In this document: one piece after another, positions 25,920 to 31,994 of the stretch
Position numbering within the stretch: the first letter of the stretch is position 1
Layout: every line of letters begins with the position of its first letter
NCBI GenBank assembly: GCA_021805805.1
Contig: JAJZEB010000024.1
Coordinates: forward strand, 1-34,215
Reading direction: 5' to 3'
Length of the DNA stretch: 34,215 bases
Source: Pseudomonadota bacterium
GTDB taxonomy: Bacteria; Pseudomonadota; Gammaproteobacteria; Burkholderiales; Burkholderiaceae_C
Made by a program: the position numbers and the translations under genes
Notes under the pieces: model-generated
Databases searched by the model: none
What the model saw: only the letters and a program-made list of their open reading frames with translations
Told to the model about the DNA's origin: nothing

Positions 25920-27731
25920 TCAGCCGGCCTCCCGGCCCGGGTTGCGGCTCAGTATATTGTCCCGCGGCGAGGTCGGCGCGGGCACCGCAGCAGCTGCTTG
26001 ACCCCGCGCGTAGTGTTCGAGGGTGTAGCGGTAGGCGTTGTCGATGGTGCGCGACCAGGCGCGCCAGTTCAGCAACCCGACGTCGTCGTGCGGCGGGGTC
26101 AGCAGGCGGGTCGCCAGCGCGCGGCGCATTTCGCTGCTGGCTTCACTTTGCACCATGGCCGCGCGCATCAGGATCGCGAACAGGCTGGGCCATTGGCGGC
26201 CGTGCAGCCATTGCCAGGTCAGCCTCGGCAGCGTCGGCAGCGCGGCGTCCTCGAACGCCGCCGGCAAGGTGTTGGCGCCGCTGATGTCGACAGCGATGAT
26301 GTCGTGCACTCCCGAGTCGCGCATGACGTCGGTCGGCAGGTTGTTCAGCACGGCGCCGTCGACGTGCACCATGCCGCGGTCGAGCAGCGGCGGCAGGATT
26401 CCCGGGATCGCGGCCCCGGCGCGCAACCACTTCCAGAGTCTGCCGCGGCGGTGCACGTCGACGCGGCCGCGGGTCAGGTTGGTCGAGATGCAGAAGAACG
26501 GAATCGCCAGATCCTCGATGCGCCGTTCGGCGAACGCGCGCTGCAGCAGCCGGGTCGTTCGCGTTCCGCGCGTCAGCGCGATCAGCGGCACCGTAAGGTC
26601 GCGCAGCGGATGGCCGGCGATGAAGTTGCGCCGCAACTGCTCGAGCATTTCGGCATCATCCCATTCGCACGCCACTCCGGCACCGACGATGGCGCCGATG
26701 CTGGTGCCGCCGACGGCGTCGATCGGCTGGCCGAGTTCGCGCAGCGCACGCACCACGCCGATGTGCCCGAAGCCGCGCGCGCCGCCGCCTGAAAGCACCA
26801 GGCCGACGGCACGCTGCGCCAGGTGGCGCGCCAGCCGCGCGTAGTCGGCGTTGCTGCGCAAGCGGTGCGGAAGCACCTCGCCACTGAATTGCCGCAACCA
26901 CGCGCTGATGTCGTCGCGCTCGGGCGTCGAAGGCCCGACCAGGAGCAGTCTGCGGGTCCGGTGCAGGGTGTCGCCACCGCTGCGGCACAGCGCATCGGGC
27001 CATGGCTGCGCGGCCACGCCGGTATCGGCCAGCAACAGGAACTGGTCGGCCTGGCGCAGGCAGGTCGCGCGCCACGCAGCATCGTCGCGGTCGGCGACAT
27101 ACAGCACGAAGCGATGCTCGCGTTCACGCTCCGTATGCCACGCCGGGTCGCGTCCGCGTCCGGTGCCGGCATCGAGCAGCAGCGTGGCGCCAAGCGGCCG
27201 GAGCGCAGCGGCAAGCCGCTCGGCGGCGTCGCGCAGCGCGAGCCCGCCGTGGACCCCGACCATCGCGAAGGTGCGCGGCGGCGTCAGCACCTCGCCGTGC
27301 GCGCGTTGGCCCAGTCTGTTCAGGATGTGTCGCAGCGATTCGGCCAGCGCCTGCGGATGCTGCGCCATCAGGCGCAGCATCACGTCGCTGCGGTGCAGGC
27401 GCAGCAACGTGCAGTCGCGCAGCGCGCGCACCGTCGCCGTGCGCGGTTGGCCGGTCAGGAAACCGAGTTCGCCGACCGTCTCGCCCGGGGCGATGACACC
27501 GAGCAGCTGCGGCGCACCGCGTGCCAGGCCGCGGCCGAACACGCCCAGACTTCCCGAGCACAACACGTAAAGCGCATCGGAGCGGTCTCCGATGCGGAAC
27601 AGCAGGTCGCCGCCGCGCAGCTCGTGCGGCGCAGCGTGCGGCAGCAGCGCTGCGCGCACTGGCGCATCGAGCACGCCGAAGACCGCGGTGCGGGCAAGAT
27701 CGTCGAGGATGTCCTGTTGCATCGCTGGCAT
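25920..27731 (-). CDS. Patatin-like phospholipase with cyclic-nucleotide-binding domain (NTE family)
   Basis: A 603-residue protein. Residues about 15-135 form a CRP-type cyclic-nucleotide-binding domain with the phosphate-cassette pattern GELGFLTGQPRTATV (88-102). A middle domain (about 150-300) is typical of NTE-type bacterial proteins. The patatin domain starts at about 308: oxyanion loop GGGARGFGHIG (315-325), nucleophile serine in GTSIG (Ser344), and catalytic aspartate in DGA (458-460). The family hydrolyses phospholipids or lysophospholipids. AAGGAG lies about 12 bases before the start at 27731; a second in-frame ATG nine bases downstream is possible. A diguanylate cyclase follows on the same strand, so the binding domain could be tuned by a cyclic nucleotide; the ligand is unknown. 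Confidence 0.93.
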   Translation of the reverse strand: MPAMQQDILDDLARTAVFGVLDAPVRAALLPHAAPHELRGGDLLFRIGDRSDALYVLCSGSLGVFGRGLARGAPQLLGVIAPGETVGELGFLTGQPRTATVRALRDCTLLRLHRSDVMLRLMAQHPQALAESLRHILNRLGQRAHGEVLTPPRTFAMVGVHGGLALRDAAERLAAALRPLGATLLLDAGTGRGRDPAWHTEREREHRFVLYVADRDDAAWRATCLRQADQFLLLADTGVAAQPWPDALCRSGGDTLHRTRRLLLVGPSTPERDDISAWLRQFSGEVLPHRLRSNADYARLARHLAQRAVGLVLSGGGARGFGHIGVVRALRELGQPIDAVGGTSIGAIVGAGVACEWDDAEMLEQLRRNFIAGHPLRDLTVPLIALTRGTRTTRLLQRAFAERRIEDLAIPFFCISTNLTRGRVDVHRRGRLWKWLRAGAAIPGILPPLLDRGMVHVDGAVLNNLPTDVMRDSGVHDIIAVDISGANTLPAAFEDAALPTLPRLTWQWLHGRQWPSLFAILMRAAMVQSEASSEMRRALATRLLTPPHDDVGLLNWRAWSRTIDNAYRYTLEHYARGQAAAAVPAPTSPRDNILSRNPGREAG

Positions 27732-27859: not shown

Positions 27860-27885
27860 GGAGGCGAGATACGGGAGAGCAGGCC

Positions 27886-29442
27886 ATGCCGCATGCCGGC
27901 GTCGCGGCGTCGCGACGCTTCGTTTCGGGCCGATGGCGCGCCGCAGTGCGCGCGGCGTTGCCGTGGCTTGCCGTTGCCGGAGCGGCTGCGCTCGGCCATC
28001 GGCGCGACGCGATCGGTGCCGGAGTCTTGCTCGTCGCCACCGCAGGCCTGGCCCGTGTCGCGCGGCGCATGGCCTGGCGCGTGGTGCAGCGTGCGCCAGC
28101 GGGCGCCGCACAGGGCACCGCCGTGCGCCAGTGCGATGGCCGCTGGGCTTGGCGCACGGCGGCCGAGTTGCGGCGCGGCGACGTGGCCCGGGTCGACAGC
28201 GCAGCGTGCGTGGTCGCCGACGGCCGAGTTCTGGACGGAGGCGGGCGAGTCGACGAAGCCGCGATCACCGGCGATGGTCGACCCTGCGGCAAGCGTATCG
28301 GCGATCGGTTGTACGCCGGAAGCATCAACCTGGGTGCCGCGCTGACCTACAGGATCGACGCGGTGGCCGACGCGACCCTGGCGGCGCGCCTGGCCAGCGG
28401 GCGAATGCGTGCGTTCGCGCGCAGCCTGGGAATGCATCGGCGCCTGCGCCTGGGCGTGTCGCTGCTGCTGGCAGCGGTCGCGGCGGCGGCTTTGCCGACG
28501 CTCAGCGATGCGCTCGATGGCGACGCCGCTTACCGAGCCCTGGTCTGGTTGGCGCTGGCCTGGAACGCCGCGCTGCGCATGTGCGCCCCATGCTGCGCCG
28601 CTGCTGCATTGCTGGTTGCGTCGCGCCGTGGCATCGCTGTCTCCGGAATCGAGTCCTTGCGGCGCGCGGCGCGTGCCACGGTCGTCGATCTCGATGAACC
28701 CCCGGCGCTCGCCGCGCAGGCGCGCGTCGTCGACTGGCAGTTGCTGGGCGTGCGCCGCGCGCCGCGACAACTGCTTGCCGCGGCGCGCGCGCTGGGCGCG
28801 CGTGCGCGCGCACCGCTGGCTGCATTGGCAGCGCTCGATGCACCGCTGCGCCATGCCTCGGCCTGTGCATGCAGCGCTGCAGGCGGAGTTCAGGGCCGCG
28901 TCGACGGCGTCGACTACCGACTCGGCGATCCGGAGTGGGCGTTGCGCGGCATGCACTGCTCGGCGCCACTGGATGCCTTGCTGGAACTGCATCGCGCGCG
29001 CGGACGTTGCGTTGCGTTGCTGGCCGACGGTGCGGGTGCGCTGGCCCTGTTCGCGCTGGAACGCGCGGTGCCGGTCGAGACGGCACAAGCCATCGATGCG
29101 CTGCATGCGTTTGGCGTACGCGGAATTCGCTCTGGCGGGAAGAAGCCGGGGCCGGGCAGGCTGCGCGTCGCGTTCGGTACGGCCGCGCGCGGCCTGGCCC
29201 CAGACGTCGCGGATCTGGTCGTCGTCGGCGATGCGCCCACCGGGCTGGCCGACGCGCTGCGATTGGCGCGGCGCACCGATGCGGCGCTGCGCTGTTCGGT
29301 TCTGGTGGCGCTGGCCGGCAAGTTGCTGGCCGTCGGCCTGGCACTGGCCGGCGCGCTGACCATGTCCACTGCGCTGGGCGTCGAACTGGCCTCGATGCTC
29401 GGCGTGCTCGGCAGCGCGGCGATGCTGCGCCGCCAGAGCTGA
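27886..29442 (+). CDS. Degenerate P1B-type ATPase homologue lacking catalytic motifs
   Basis: A 518-residue membrane protein with an intact reading frame and a good ribosome site (GGGAGAG). The P-type ATPase architecture is readable: actuator-like VDEAAITGDGRPCGK (122-136, where active pumps have TGES), membrane metal-site equivalent CAPCC (233-237, normally CPC), then RRGIAVSGIESLRRAARATVVD (in two pieces) leading to the site of the phosphorylated aspartate. There the invariant DKTGT is replaced by DLDEP (268-272). The nucleotide domain has GGVQGRVDGVDYRLGDPEW (333-351) but the SEHP histidine position reads ARAPLA. The TGD motif is SGG (416-418), and the GDGxND hinge is absent: AFGTAARGLAPDVADLVVV follows almost directly. 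It cannot work as a normal ion pump. A regulatory or binding role is inference; a decaying gene is the alternative. Confidence 0.75.
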   Translation: MPHAGVAASRRFVSGRWRAAVRAALPWLAVAGAAALGHRRDAIGAGVLLVATAGLARVARRMAWRVVQRAPAGAAQGTAVRQCDGRWAWRTAAELRRGDVARVDSAACVVADGRVLDGGGRVDEAAITGDGRPCGKRIGDRLYAGSINLGAALTYRIDAVADATLAARLASGRMRAFARSLGMHRRLRLGVSLLLAAVAAAALPTLSDALDGDAAYRALVWLALAWNAALRMCAPCCAAAALLVASRRGIAVSGIESLRRAARATVVDLDEPPALAAQARVVDWQLLGVRRAPRQLLAAARALGARARAPLAALAALDAPLRHASACACSAAGGVQGRVDGVDYRLGDPEWALRGMHCSAPLDALLELHRARGRCVALLADGAGALALFALERAVPVETAQAIDALHAFGVRGIRSGGKKPGPGRLRVAFGTAARGLAPDVADLVVVGDAPTGLADALRLARRTDAALRCSVLVALAGKLLAVGLALAGALTMSTALGVELASMLGVLGSAAMLRRQS

Positions 29443-29449
29443 GCGCGAA

Positions 29450-30010
29450 TCAGGATGCCACCACCAGCGCCGAGAAATCGCGCGCGATGCTCCGCGCCAG
29501 CTCCGGGGGCAGGCAGGCCCGCTGCAAGCTGCGCACGCCCGCCATCGAGGCGATGAACTTGGCGGCGAACGCGGTCGGGTCGGCCACCGGGTTCGCACTG
29601 GCTTCGGCCTTGCGCACCAGCAGTTGGGCGAGACGATCCAGGCCGTCGCGCACGGTCTGCAGCGTATCCGCGTCGGCGTCGTGCAGCTCAATCAGGCCAT
29701 TGAGCAGCAGACAGCCGCGGCCGTCGGAATTGGACGTCGCGGCGTCGACCAGGAGATATTCGACTGCGGCCGCAAGACCCTGCTGGGCGAACAGCGTTTC
29801 CAGCGCAGCCAGCGACTGCGTGACGTACCTGTCGACGGCGAGCCGAACCAGTTCGGACTTGCTGTTGAACGCGTTGTACAGCGACGATCGGCCGATGCCG
29901 ATCGCGTTTTGCAGTGCGTCGACGCTGGTTGTTCCCAGGCCGCCTCGCCACAACGCCTGCATCGCGGCATCGACAGCTTCGTCGGCATCAAAAGTGCGTG
30001 GTCTGGCCAT
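29450..30010 (-). CDS. TetR/AcrR-family transcriptional repressor
   Basis: A 186-residue protein beginning MARPRTFDADEAVDAAMQAL. The helix-turn-helix covers about residues 10-55 (TTSVDALQNAIGIGRSSLYN, FNSKSELVRLAVDRY). The C-terminal ligand domain is helical. An in-frame GTG at 30016 would add two residues; the ATG at 30010 is preferred because TACAAT lies exactly six bases before it and there is no Shine-Dalgarno, suggesting leaderless initiation. It is divergent from an Old Yellow Enzyme, the usual arrangement of NemR-like repressors with flavin reductases that detoxify electrophiles. The 150-base gap should hold a shared operator, but I could not pick a convincing palindrome. Confidence 0.92.
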   Translation of the reverse strand: MARPRTFDADEAVDAAMQALWRGGLGTTSVDALQNAIGIGRSSLYNAFNSKSELVRLAVDRYVTQSLAALETLFAQQGLAAAVEYLLVDAATSNSDGRGCLLLNGLIELHDADADTLQTVRDGLDRLAQLLVRKAEASANPVADPTAFAAKFIASMAGVRSLQRACLPPELARSIARDFSALVVAS

Positions 30011-30016
30011 CGTCAC

Positions 30017-30160: not shown

Positions 30161-31240
30161 ATGCTGTTCGATCCAGCCCAGATTCGCCACCTGAAGGTTT
30201 CCAACCGCATCGTCATGGCGCCGCTGACGCGAAGCCGTGCTGTCGATTCCAACACGCCGAATGCGCTGATGGCAGAATACTACGCGCAGCGCGCCGCGGC
30301 CGGCCTCATCATCACCGAGGGCACTTCGCCATCGGCCAACGGCCTCGGGTACGCCCGCATCCCGGGTCTGTTCAACGCCCGGCACGTGCAGGGCTGGCGC
30401 CAGGTCACCGATGCGGTGCATGCCTCCGGCGGACGCATCGTGGTGCAGCTGATGCACACCGGGCGCGTATCGCAGCTGGCCAATCTGCCGCCCGGCGCAG
30501 AAGTGCTCGGGCCCGGCGACGCCACGCTGGGCGGGCAGGTGCATACCGACGCCCACGGGATGCAGCCGTACAGCAGGCCGCGCGCAATGCGCGAGTCCGA
30601 TATCGCGCACGCGGTCGACGAATACGCGCAGGCCGCGAGGCTGGCGCTGGACGCCGGCTTCGACGGCGTCGAGGTCCATGCGGCCAACGGCTACCTGATC
30701 GAGCAGTTCCTCAACGCCAACGTCAACCACCGCAGCGACGGATACGGCGGCAGCATCGAGGGCCGCAACCGGTTCGCGCTGGAGGTCGTGCGCGCGGTCT
30801 CTTCGGCCATCGGCGCCGAGCGGGTCGGAATCAGGCTTTCGCCGTACGGGGTATTCAACGAAACCGGAGCATTCGACGGCGTCGATGCACAGTATCGTGC
30901 GCTGGTCACCGAACTGTCGCGCATCGGTCTGCTGTACCTGCACCTGCTCGACCACTCGGCGATGGGCGCTCCGCCGGTGCCCGCCGAGCTCAAGCGGCAG
31001 CTGCGCGCAGCGTTCGACGGTCCATGCATTCTCGCCGGGGGTTTCGACCGCGCCGGCGCCGAGCGCGCACTGGCAGCGGGCGATGCCGACCTCATCGCGT
31101 TCGGCCGCAGCGCGCTGGCCAATCCGGATCTGGTCGAGCGCATGCGCCGCGACGTGCCGCTGAACGCTCCCGACCAGGCAACGTTCTACACGCCTGGGGC
31201 TGCCGGGTATACCGACTATCCGGTGCTGGCCGAAGCCTGA
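30161..31240 (+). CDS. Old Yellow Enzyme family flavin reductase (NemA-like)
   Basis: A 359-residue FMN barrel protein. Characteristic segments are NRIVMAPLTRSRA (about residues 15-27), the substrate-site pair HAANGYLIEQFL (about 178-189, with the H-x-x-N arrangement of alkene reductases), RSDGYGGSIEGRNRF (about 193-207) and the phosphate loop AFGRSALANPDLV near residue 320. Such enzymes reduce activated double bonds such as quinones, N-ethylmaleimide or nitro compounds with NAD(P)H. GAGGAA precedes the ATG at about six bases. It is divergent from a TetR repressor, which probably controls it in response to electrophiles. It converges on the small secreted protein at 31263. Confidence 0.93.
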   Translation: MLFDPAQIRHLKVSNRIVMAPLTRSRAVDSNTPNALMAEYYAQRAAAGLIITEGTSPSANGLGYARIPGLFNARHVQGWRQVTDAVHASGGRIVVQLMHTGRVSQLANLPPGAEVLGPGDATLGGQVHTDAHGMQPYSRPRAMRESDIAHAVDEYAQAARLALDAGFDGVEVHAANGYLIEQFLNANVNHRSDGYGGSIEGRNRFALEVVRAVSSAIGAERVGIRLSPYGVFNETGAFDGVDAQYRALVTELSRIGLLYLHLLDHSAMGAPPVPAELKRQLRAAFDGPCILAGGFDRAGAERALAAGDADLIAFGRSALANPDLVERMRRDVPLNAPDQATFYTPGAAGYTDYPVLAEA

Positions 31241-31262: not shown

Positions 31263-31763
31263 TCATCGCGCGGCTTCGATGCGCCCGGCGCGGTCGACGC
31301 GCACCCGGGTGCCTACCGGAGGCGGTGTGCTGAGCGTTGCACTGCGCACCGAGCCGTCGTCCATGCGGACTTCGACCCGGTACCTTGTGCGCGCTCCGGC
31401 GCGCGCGCCGGAGCGTTCGGGCGCGGCGTCGGTGCGCAACTGCGCGACGCTGGACACCGTTCCGCAGTCCACGCAACGCGACGGCGGGGGCGGCGCGTGC
31501 ATGCGCCCGCCCTCGACCGAGGGTCGAGGCTGCAGCAACGGCCCGGAAGCTCCTGTGCGCGGGTTCCCGGCACGCGCGCCGGCGCACGCCGCCGCGGACG
31601 CCTGCGGCGCGCGCGCAAGCTGCACCGGCGTGGCGCCGAAGGACTGTGGTGCCGGGCTGCGGGCGGCCGCGGCCGGTGCCGCGACAAGCAGCGCGGCAAG
31701 CGCGCCGGCAATGCCGGGCGCAAGGCGCGGGGTGAGCGTGTCTTCGGAGCGGCCGTGCGACAC
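31263..31763 (-). CDS. Small secreted protein with disrupted 5' end
   Basis: Reading upstream from the stop, the frame gives a hydrophobic signal peptide-like stretch (APGIAGALAALLVAAPAAAA), a low-complexity Ala/Pro/Arg region, and a C-terminal part with CVDCGTV and YRVEVRMDDGSVRS followed by GTRVRVDRAGRI. This C-terminal pattern recalls secreted proteins with a glycine-zipper plus C-terminal beta domain, but no glycine zipper is present. No ATG lies near the signal peptide: the sequence just upstream of it is copy 1 of a duplicated 110 bp block. The best start is a GTG at 31763 inside that copy, giving 166 residues. The original start may have been lost when the duplication arose, so this could be a pseudogene. 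Confidence 0.5.
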   Translation of the reverse strand: MSHGRSEDTLTPRLAPGIAGALAALLVAAPAAAARSPAPQSFGATPVQLARAPQASAAACAGARAGNPRTGASGPLLQPRPSVEGGRMHAPPPPSRCVDCGTVSSVAQLRTDAAPERSGARAGARTRYRVEVRMDDGSVRSATLSTPPPVGTRVRVDRAGRIEAAR

Positions 31764-31838
31764 GCTCAGGCCCCGCCGCTTTCGGACTCGCCGTCGGCCA
31801 CCGATTCGAGGGCCTCGCGTACGCGGTTGCGGCCTGCA
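31729..31838. repeat. 110 bp direct repeat, copy 1
   Basis: Identical base for base to 31885-31994, at an offset of 156 bases. It reproduces the last 73 bases of the PAS-GGDEF gene plus 37 bases beyond its stop. It contains the inverted pair TGAGCGTGTC (31733-31742) and GACACGCTCA (31759-31768). It abuts the signal-peptide coding part of the small secreted protein. Confidence 0.95.
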
Positions 31839-31873: not shown

Positions 31874-31888
31874 CCCCTCCGAGAGGGG
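31874..31888. other. GC hairpin between the repeat copies
   Basis: CCCCTC and GAGGGG flank the loop CGA. On the minus strand it follows the PAS-GGDEF stop after the hairpin TGAGCGTGTC/GACACGCTCA. Neither has a T-run, but together they could slow or end transcription. Confidence 0.4.
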
Positions 31889-31994
31889 TGAGCGTGTCTT
31901 CGGAGCGGCCGTGCGACACGCTCAGGCCCCGCCGCTTTCGGACTCGCCGTCGGCCACCGATTCGAGGGCCTCGCGTACGCGGTTGCGGCCTGCA
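31885..31994. repeat. 110 bp direct repeat, copy 2 (source copy)
   Basis: Covers the last codons of the PAS-GGDEF gene (31922-31994) and 37 bases past its stop. The inverted arms TGAGCGTGTC (31889-31898) and GACACGCTCA (31915-31924) here overlap the stop codon. A further CACGCTCAGG at 31839 lies in the 46-base spacer. Confidence 0.95.

Follow-up and report, generated by a model that had tools for sequence, protein, structure and literature searches.

The window, that is, the whole stretch of 34,215 nucleotides that we analysed, carries on its forward strand a gene at 27886..29442 that begins with ATG and codes for 518 amino acids without an internal stop, exactly as an earlier note made from the letters alone had read it. 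Based on homology, orthologues and selection, we label it a pseudo-P1B-2 ATPase gene. A likely ribosome-binding site (GGGAGAG, 27873..27879, + strand) lies before the start codon. It was proposed from sequence alone and looks plausible; it aligns with the GGAGGG that precedes the matching ATG in two related genomes (G008 and G019). Upstream and divergent lies a gene for a cNMP-binding and patatin protein of the NTE/RssA-like kind (25920..27731, − strand). Downstream are a convergent TetR-family regulator (29450..30016, − strand) and an OYE-family flavin oxidoreductase (30161..31240, + strand). None of the neighbours is a metal gene. The GC content of the window is about 70%, and an ORF of 639 amino acids is open antisense over the very same place. 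Because of these two properties an uninterrupted frame says little by itself, and what argues for more than chance is the comparison of sequences. Nor is the composition of the gene fully like that of its surroundings, as had been suggested: GC at the second codon position is 0.61 versus 0.42–0.53 in six neighbouring genes.

Homology of the encoded protein to P-type ATPases is confirmed far beyond chance. Pfam assigns residues 78–247 to the E1-E2_ATPase family (E=3.6e-20) and finds no P-domain (hydrolase) family at E≤1; the G008 copy likewise matches E1-E2_ATPase only, without the P-domain hydrolase. The NCBIfam heavy-metal ATPase family matches the window protein at E=1.7e-36, with a score of 126 bits that lies under the curated cut-off of 346, as do its scores under all other NCBIfam cut-offs; for comparison, this family gives 582 bits with an intact pump from the genus. 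The best solved structure in an orthologue-profile search is ZntA (4umv, E=1.9e-26). The initial identification as a heavy-metal P-type ATPase homologue is therefore borne out by Pfam, NCBIfam and the ZntA match together.

To place the gene among its relatives, we used a sample of 28 genomes of the genus, the window genome (G000) included. Matches at E≤1e-20 were obtained in 12 of them, and a degenerate copy is present in three: G000, G008 and G019, all of which are MAG-like assemblies, so that the copy is known from these three only. The G008 and G019 orthologues are both 555 amino acids long and 42–49% identical to the window protein, and they share its losses and its neighbours. The gene order common to all three is indolepyruvate oxidoreductase, GGDEF, patatin, the degenerate copy, TetR, OYE and GGDEF, with the G019 copy being split over two contig ends. 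In the other nine matching genomes, the ten matches taken as loci all have intact DKTGT, GDGxND and SxHP. All 28 extracted pump proteins have DKTGT and GDGxND, 27 have TGES and 24 have SxHP. Orthologues with intact DKTGT and GDGxND, or with frameshifts, had been named beforehand as the sign that the copy is simply decaying; among the 28 genus genomes we found neither an orthologue in which DKTGT or GDGxND is intact nor one that carries a frameshift. The patatin gene serves as a marker of the locus. It occurs in 22 of the 28 genomes, and at these 22 loci (flanks of at most 1.5 kb, some ended by contig ends) a P-type ATPase stands beside it only in the three known cases; no intact copy at the same locus was found in either set. 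Conversely, none of the window-locus neighbours appears in eight neighbourhoods of intact genus pumps.

The question raised earlier, whether neighbouring genomes keep the same losses, has two answers: G008 and G019 do, and G025 is without the gene. G025 is the nearest genome (patatin 90% and TetR 82% identical), and in it the patatin and TetR genes lie about 106 bp apart (L096:3257-3362). Since these two genes adjoin with nothing between them, G025 has lost the gene cleanly, which means that at least one lineage can do without it. Searches beyond the genus brought no further copies. A contig search with the window protein yielded no wider relatives. The same search with the alignment of the three copies yielded four loci, three of them on the G008 and G019 contigs and the fourth (L135) a different, intact P-type ATPase. 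In a sample of 399 family genomes drawn from a larger group, with three candidates scored in each, 90 matched at E≤1e-30; among the places listed there is no further short copy, all except that of the window being frames of at least 602 amino acids.

The state of each motif was read from an alignment of the three copies with 44 intact P1B-2 pumps (44 of the 47 P1B-2 rows of a 79-row tree, L020, L155 and L156 being left out by choice). Of the 199 columns that are at least 95% conserved in the pumps, the three copies all preserve 45 and have all lost 81; a further 14 are gapped in every copy, and 59 are mixed. The TGES position (28267..28278, + strand) reads TGDG in the window, as first noted, and TGER in both relatives. 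The site described earlier as CPC-like, CAPCC (residues 233–237), turns out to be misplaced. It aligns 7–8 residues after CPC, at STPVT, and the true column (28561..28569, + strand) holds W226-N227-A228 in the window and WPF in G008 and G019. At DKTGT the KTGT is indeed gone, and the column reads DEPPA in the window and D--VA and D--GV in the relatives; the acceptor Asp itself (D270, 28693..28695, + strand) is kept in all three copies and is the only invariant column in a 24-row alignment with pumps. The statement that every catalytic motif has been lost thus holds for whole motifs but not for this residue. Both Ser and His of SxHP are replaced in all three copies (by Ala and Ala in the window), so the histidine is gone as reported. 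TGD is lost as well, although the SGG given for it is one residue off: the column is GGK in the window, and GGK, GVD or GAD across the copies. The segment from the TGD hinge to GDGxND is missing in all three copies, in agreement with the reported deletion (deletion point 29155..29160, + strand). An N-terminal metal-binding domain is absent.

Losses are only one side of the pattern. Across the three copies 178 residues are invariant, and 53 of these occur in fewer than 5% of the 44 pumps, which is consistent with a new role. A change that may be significant is C237 (28594..28596, + strand), a Cys in every copy where 98% of the pumps have Thr; the adjacent C236 of the window is not common to the relatives. 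The stretch W284-L297 (WQLLGVR-AP--LL, 28735..28776, + strand) is strongly conserved in the three copies and corresponds to no pump motif. In the C-terminal helices, the Lys of P1B-2 pumps (K479, 29320..29322, + strand) is kept in all three copies, and E500 (29383..29385, + strand) is Glu in all three where all 44 pumps have Asp. We take this Lys and Asp to be residues of the P1B-2 metal path. The window copy is more eroded than its relatives, with TGDG against TGER, WNA against WPF and a shorter N-terminus (the relatives have about 28 additional aligned N-terminal residues).

The predicted domain layout, all on the + strand, follows the P-type order. The first predicted membrane helices (residues 17–35 and 39–69, 27934..28092) are placed by the AlphaFold model, hydropathy and gap runs. 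They are followed by an actuator-like domain (residues 77–160, 28114..28365; Pfam and model), which is the best-kept domain, by predicted helices M3/M4 (residues 165–247, 28378..28626), with M4 broken in the model at residues 225–227 beside the old CPC, and by C-terminal predicted helices (residues 453–487 and 493–515, 29242..29430). The structural comparison with ZntA proposed in the earlier note depends strongly on the input. AlphaFold2 given the orthologue rows alone produced a poor model (pLDDT 47.6, pTM 0.30). With 20 rows of active pumps added, the values rose to pLDDT 82.5 and pTM 0.69, for a fold that may be inherited from the pump rows. A Foldseek search with this pump-aided model returned ZntA 4umw first (E=6.9e-26, query TM 0.53, rmsd 11 Å over several domains). 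The sequence therefore seems compatible with a P-type fold with a shrunken P domain, which is not proof, as the pump rows may lend the fold.

In the 79-row tree the three copies group together with support 100. Their common stem is long, at 3.2 changes per column, and the group sits in an unresolved fork with P1B-2 pumps. In a reduced set of 39 rows the copies are on one branch with P1B-2 (support 98). With the same set, both CopA and FixI/CcoI were rejected as sister (AU p=0.0017 and 0.0012, respectively), as was one genus P1B-2 group (p=0.0195); the other genus P1B-2 group, with p-AU 0.51, is neither supported nor rejected. Judged from these sequence comparisons, the copies share descent with P1B-2 pumps. 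Because of the long branch and the odd composition, their exact sister is unsure.

Selection after the losses could be measured in the G008/G019 pair, as had been recommended. The two genes align over 555 codons with no indel and no stop, are 68% identical in amino acids, and have identities of 0.80, 0.79 and 0.64 at the three codon positions. The maximum likelihood (ML) omega is 0.161 (dN 0.224, dS 1.39), with a likelihood ratio against omega=1 of 179; the Nei-Gojobori estimate of 0.37 is weaker than the ML value. For comparison, we let the G008 gene evolve neutrally to an equal divergence in four sets of 200 simulations. The mean omega of the sets was 0.94–1.06, the minimum over the 800 runs was 0.69, and both copies remained stop-free in only four. 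Of the six frames, the sense frame is the best conserved (0.679 versus 0.52–0.63), and the others hold stops in both copies except for the in-register antisense frame (0 and 1 stops). Adjacent intergenic DNA is identical at 81 of 170 positions, compared with 74% in the gene. Purifying selection has thus acted on the protein after the losses in this pair. Since the omega of the neighbours in the same pair is 0.04–0.06, the constraint on the pseudo-ATPase is real but weaker than theirs, and its dN is 3–6 times faster than that of three neighbours.

For the window branch by itself, the evidence of selection is indirect. Between the window gene and the other two, dS is saturated (3.6 and 15.3), so that the omegas of 0.185 and 0.04 are not trusted. 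The excess of dN over each neighbour differs little from pair to pair (patatin 5.2, 4.3 and 5.3; OYE 5.7, 5.7 and 5.7; TetR 3.2, 3.1 and 4.0), which speaks against a special relaxation on the window branch. All ten gap runs between the window and G008 genes are whole codons as aligned. When neutral branches of 0.25, 0.5, 0.8 and 1.0 changes per site were simulated, the 518 codons stayed stop-free in 21, 3, 2 and 0 of 500 runs, respectively.

We class the protein as a pseudoenzyme derived from P1B-2 ATPases and not as a member of them. It is a homologue of enzymes in which the catalytic motifs are lost, and selection followed the loss, directly seen between G008 and G019 and indirectly on the window branch. 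Its closest known counterparts, ZntA and CadA (4umv/4umw), are alike in being the best match by sequence and fold, in the branch support of 98 and in the C-terminal Lys. They differ in being about 700–800 amino acids long with intact motifs, whereas the copies have 518–555 amino acids and no intact DKTGT, TGES, SxHP, TGD, GDGxND or CPC. A pumping cycle should be impossible because KTGT, GDGxND and TGD (Mg/phosphate handling) are gone together with the metal-binding CPC; and because selection keeps the protein sequence, the job of the protein should be one that does not need pumping. We therefore consider it probable that this is a clade-specific pseudoenzyme from a P1B-2 (Zn/Cd-type) ATPase, a membrane protein kept for a non-pumping job. 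We infer that it is inserted in the membrane, cannot hydrolyse ATP by the usual cycle and has a regulatory or scaffolding role; the best fit is binding or regulation at the membrane without pumping. Under such a role, the P-type layout of membrane helices, actuator domain, nucleotide-domain remnant and shrunken P domain would be kept, and the protein would most likely bind a small molecule, a lipid or a partner protein at the membrane and relay this through a conformational change in the A/N-type domains that it retains. A particular form of this role, a transceptor that no longer transports, in which a membrane receptor has its metal path rebuilt around newly fixed residues (W226, C237 and E500, with the kept K479) and its phosphorylation machine deleted, with the clade-specific stretch W284-L297 transmitting or docking, is a tentative and rather unlikely proposal. 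If true, it would be the bacterial counterpart of the disputed TMEM94 case.

That case also suggests another reading, namely transport by a non-canonical cycle that relies on the retained Asp, which has been claimed for human ERMA/TMEM94. D270, retained in 3/3 copies as the sole invariant column of the 24-row alignment, would suit it, and so would the kept transmembrane Lys and the replacement of the transmembrane Asp by Glu in every copy. According to PMC13322241, ERMA has DKQGI and GSSANL in place of the usual motifs and no TGES, needs its Asp, and is claimed to transport. However, none of the three copies retains KTGT, and each has GDGxND deleted, whereas ERMA keeps the motif Lys and Gly as well as the GSSANL loop; moreover, PMC12134183 describes a rival cryo-EM study of TMEM94 that found no ATPase activity or Mg2+ binding. 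We regard such transport as quite improbable. The likeness to TMEM94/ERMA, as described in these sources (PMC13322241, PMC12134183), comprises a P-type fold in which the acceptor Asp is retained while the motifs for phosphorylation, hinge and dephosphorylation are broken. The human ER protein differs in being eukaryotic, in having ten transmembrane helices, in belonging to another P-type branch and in retaining DK-G and a P domain of full size, much of which is deleted in the bacterial copies. We do not suggest that the two became pseudoenzymes in a common ancestor.

Similarly doubtful is an inactive partner subunit that dimerises with an active P-type ATPase and tunes it. Pseudoenzymes are commonly so used, the fold appears kept in the model, and the genomes hold CopA-like and FixI/CcoI-like pumps. 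The other P-type ATPases found in G000, G008, G019 and G025 are KdpB, P2/P3-like ones and a TPC type whose tail is a hemerythrin. Against this, the copies descend from P1B-2 and not from CopA or FixI (the AU tests above), and the gene is not linked to any pump gene. The suggestion of an active P1B-2 pump as partner fares no better, for our search of the four clade genomes, of which G019 and G025 are only 81–82% complete, brought up no P1B-2 pump that is clearly intact. Two of 30 loci match P1B-2 best, at 34–36% identity: one is of the TPC type (G000:C83) and the other an ambiguous contig-end fragment (G019:C59). As a separate observation, the P-type ATPases L204:663-3026 (G000:C83) and L205 (G008:C82) have TPC in place of CPC, and L204 has a C-terminal hemerythrin domain (Pfam E=1e-12), features that resemble those of P1B-5 pumps.

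A decaying pseudogene, open because stops are rare in 70% GC DNA and perhaps confined to the window lineage, is very unlikely. Long chance ORFs such as the antisense one are common in the window, G025 has lost the gene and the window copy is the most eroded. Yet the G008–G019 omega of 0.16–0.37 lies below all 800 neutral runs, on which ground random decay was rejected for this pair; neutral branches rarely stay open over 518 codons; and the marks of a pseudogene (stops, frameshifts, omega near 1) were not seen. The earlier preference for retention over random decay agrees with the shared losses and this selection, though G025 did lose the gene. Least probable is a metal sensor or chaperone acting through remaining membrane sites or new cysteines, a role also put forward at the outset: C237 is newly fixed in all copies, K479 is kept and E500 replaces a metal-binding Asp, but CPC is lost in 3/3, the N-terminal metal-binding domain is missing, C236 is not shared and the neighbours are not metal genes, so that use of the ancestral metal site in particular looks unlikely from sequence.

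With pseudoenzymes in general (as defined in PMC10211241), the copies share the loss of catalytic motifs with fold and selection kept; that review has no match for P-type, transporter or ATPase. The mode of action proposed here resembles that of transceptors, an idea raised for eukaryotic P1B pumps in PMC10654040; those differ in keeping transport and in sensing through terminal domains that the pseudo-ATPase does not have. Among the papers listed by searches of a collection of open-access literature, we found no bacterial P-type pseudoenzyme. P-type ATPases are known as pumps, and whether their fold can be kept for a task without phosphorylation is disputed for the one well-studied candidate, TMEM94/ERMA. 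The bacterial protein described here is small, its machine is partly deleted and not just mutated, and selection on it is measurable, so that it offers a simple system for that question.

Elsewhere in the window, the interval that separates the OYE gene from the GGDEF gene holds two identical direct repeats of 110 nt (31729-31838 and 31885-31994). Throughout the genome there are 46 matches to a related unit of about 60–85 nt, often arranged in tandem, and the repeats presumably belong to a dispersed REP-like family.
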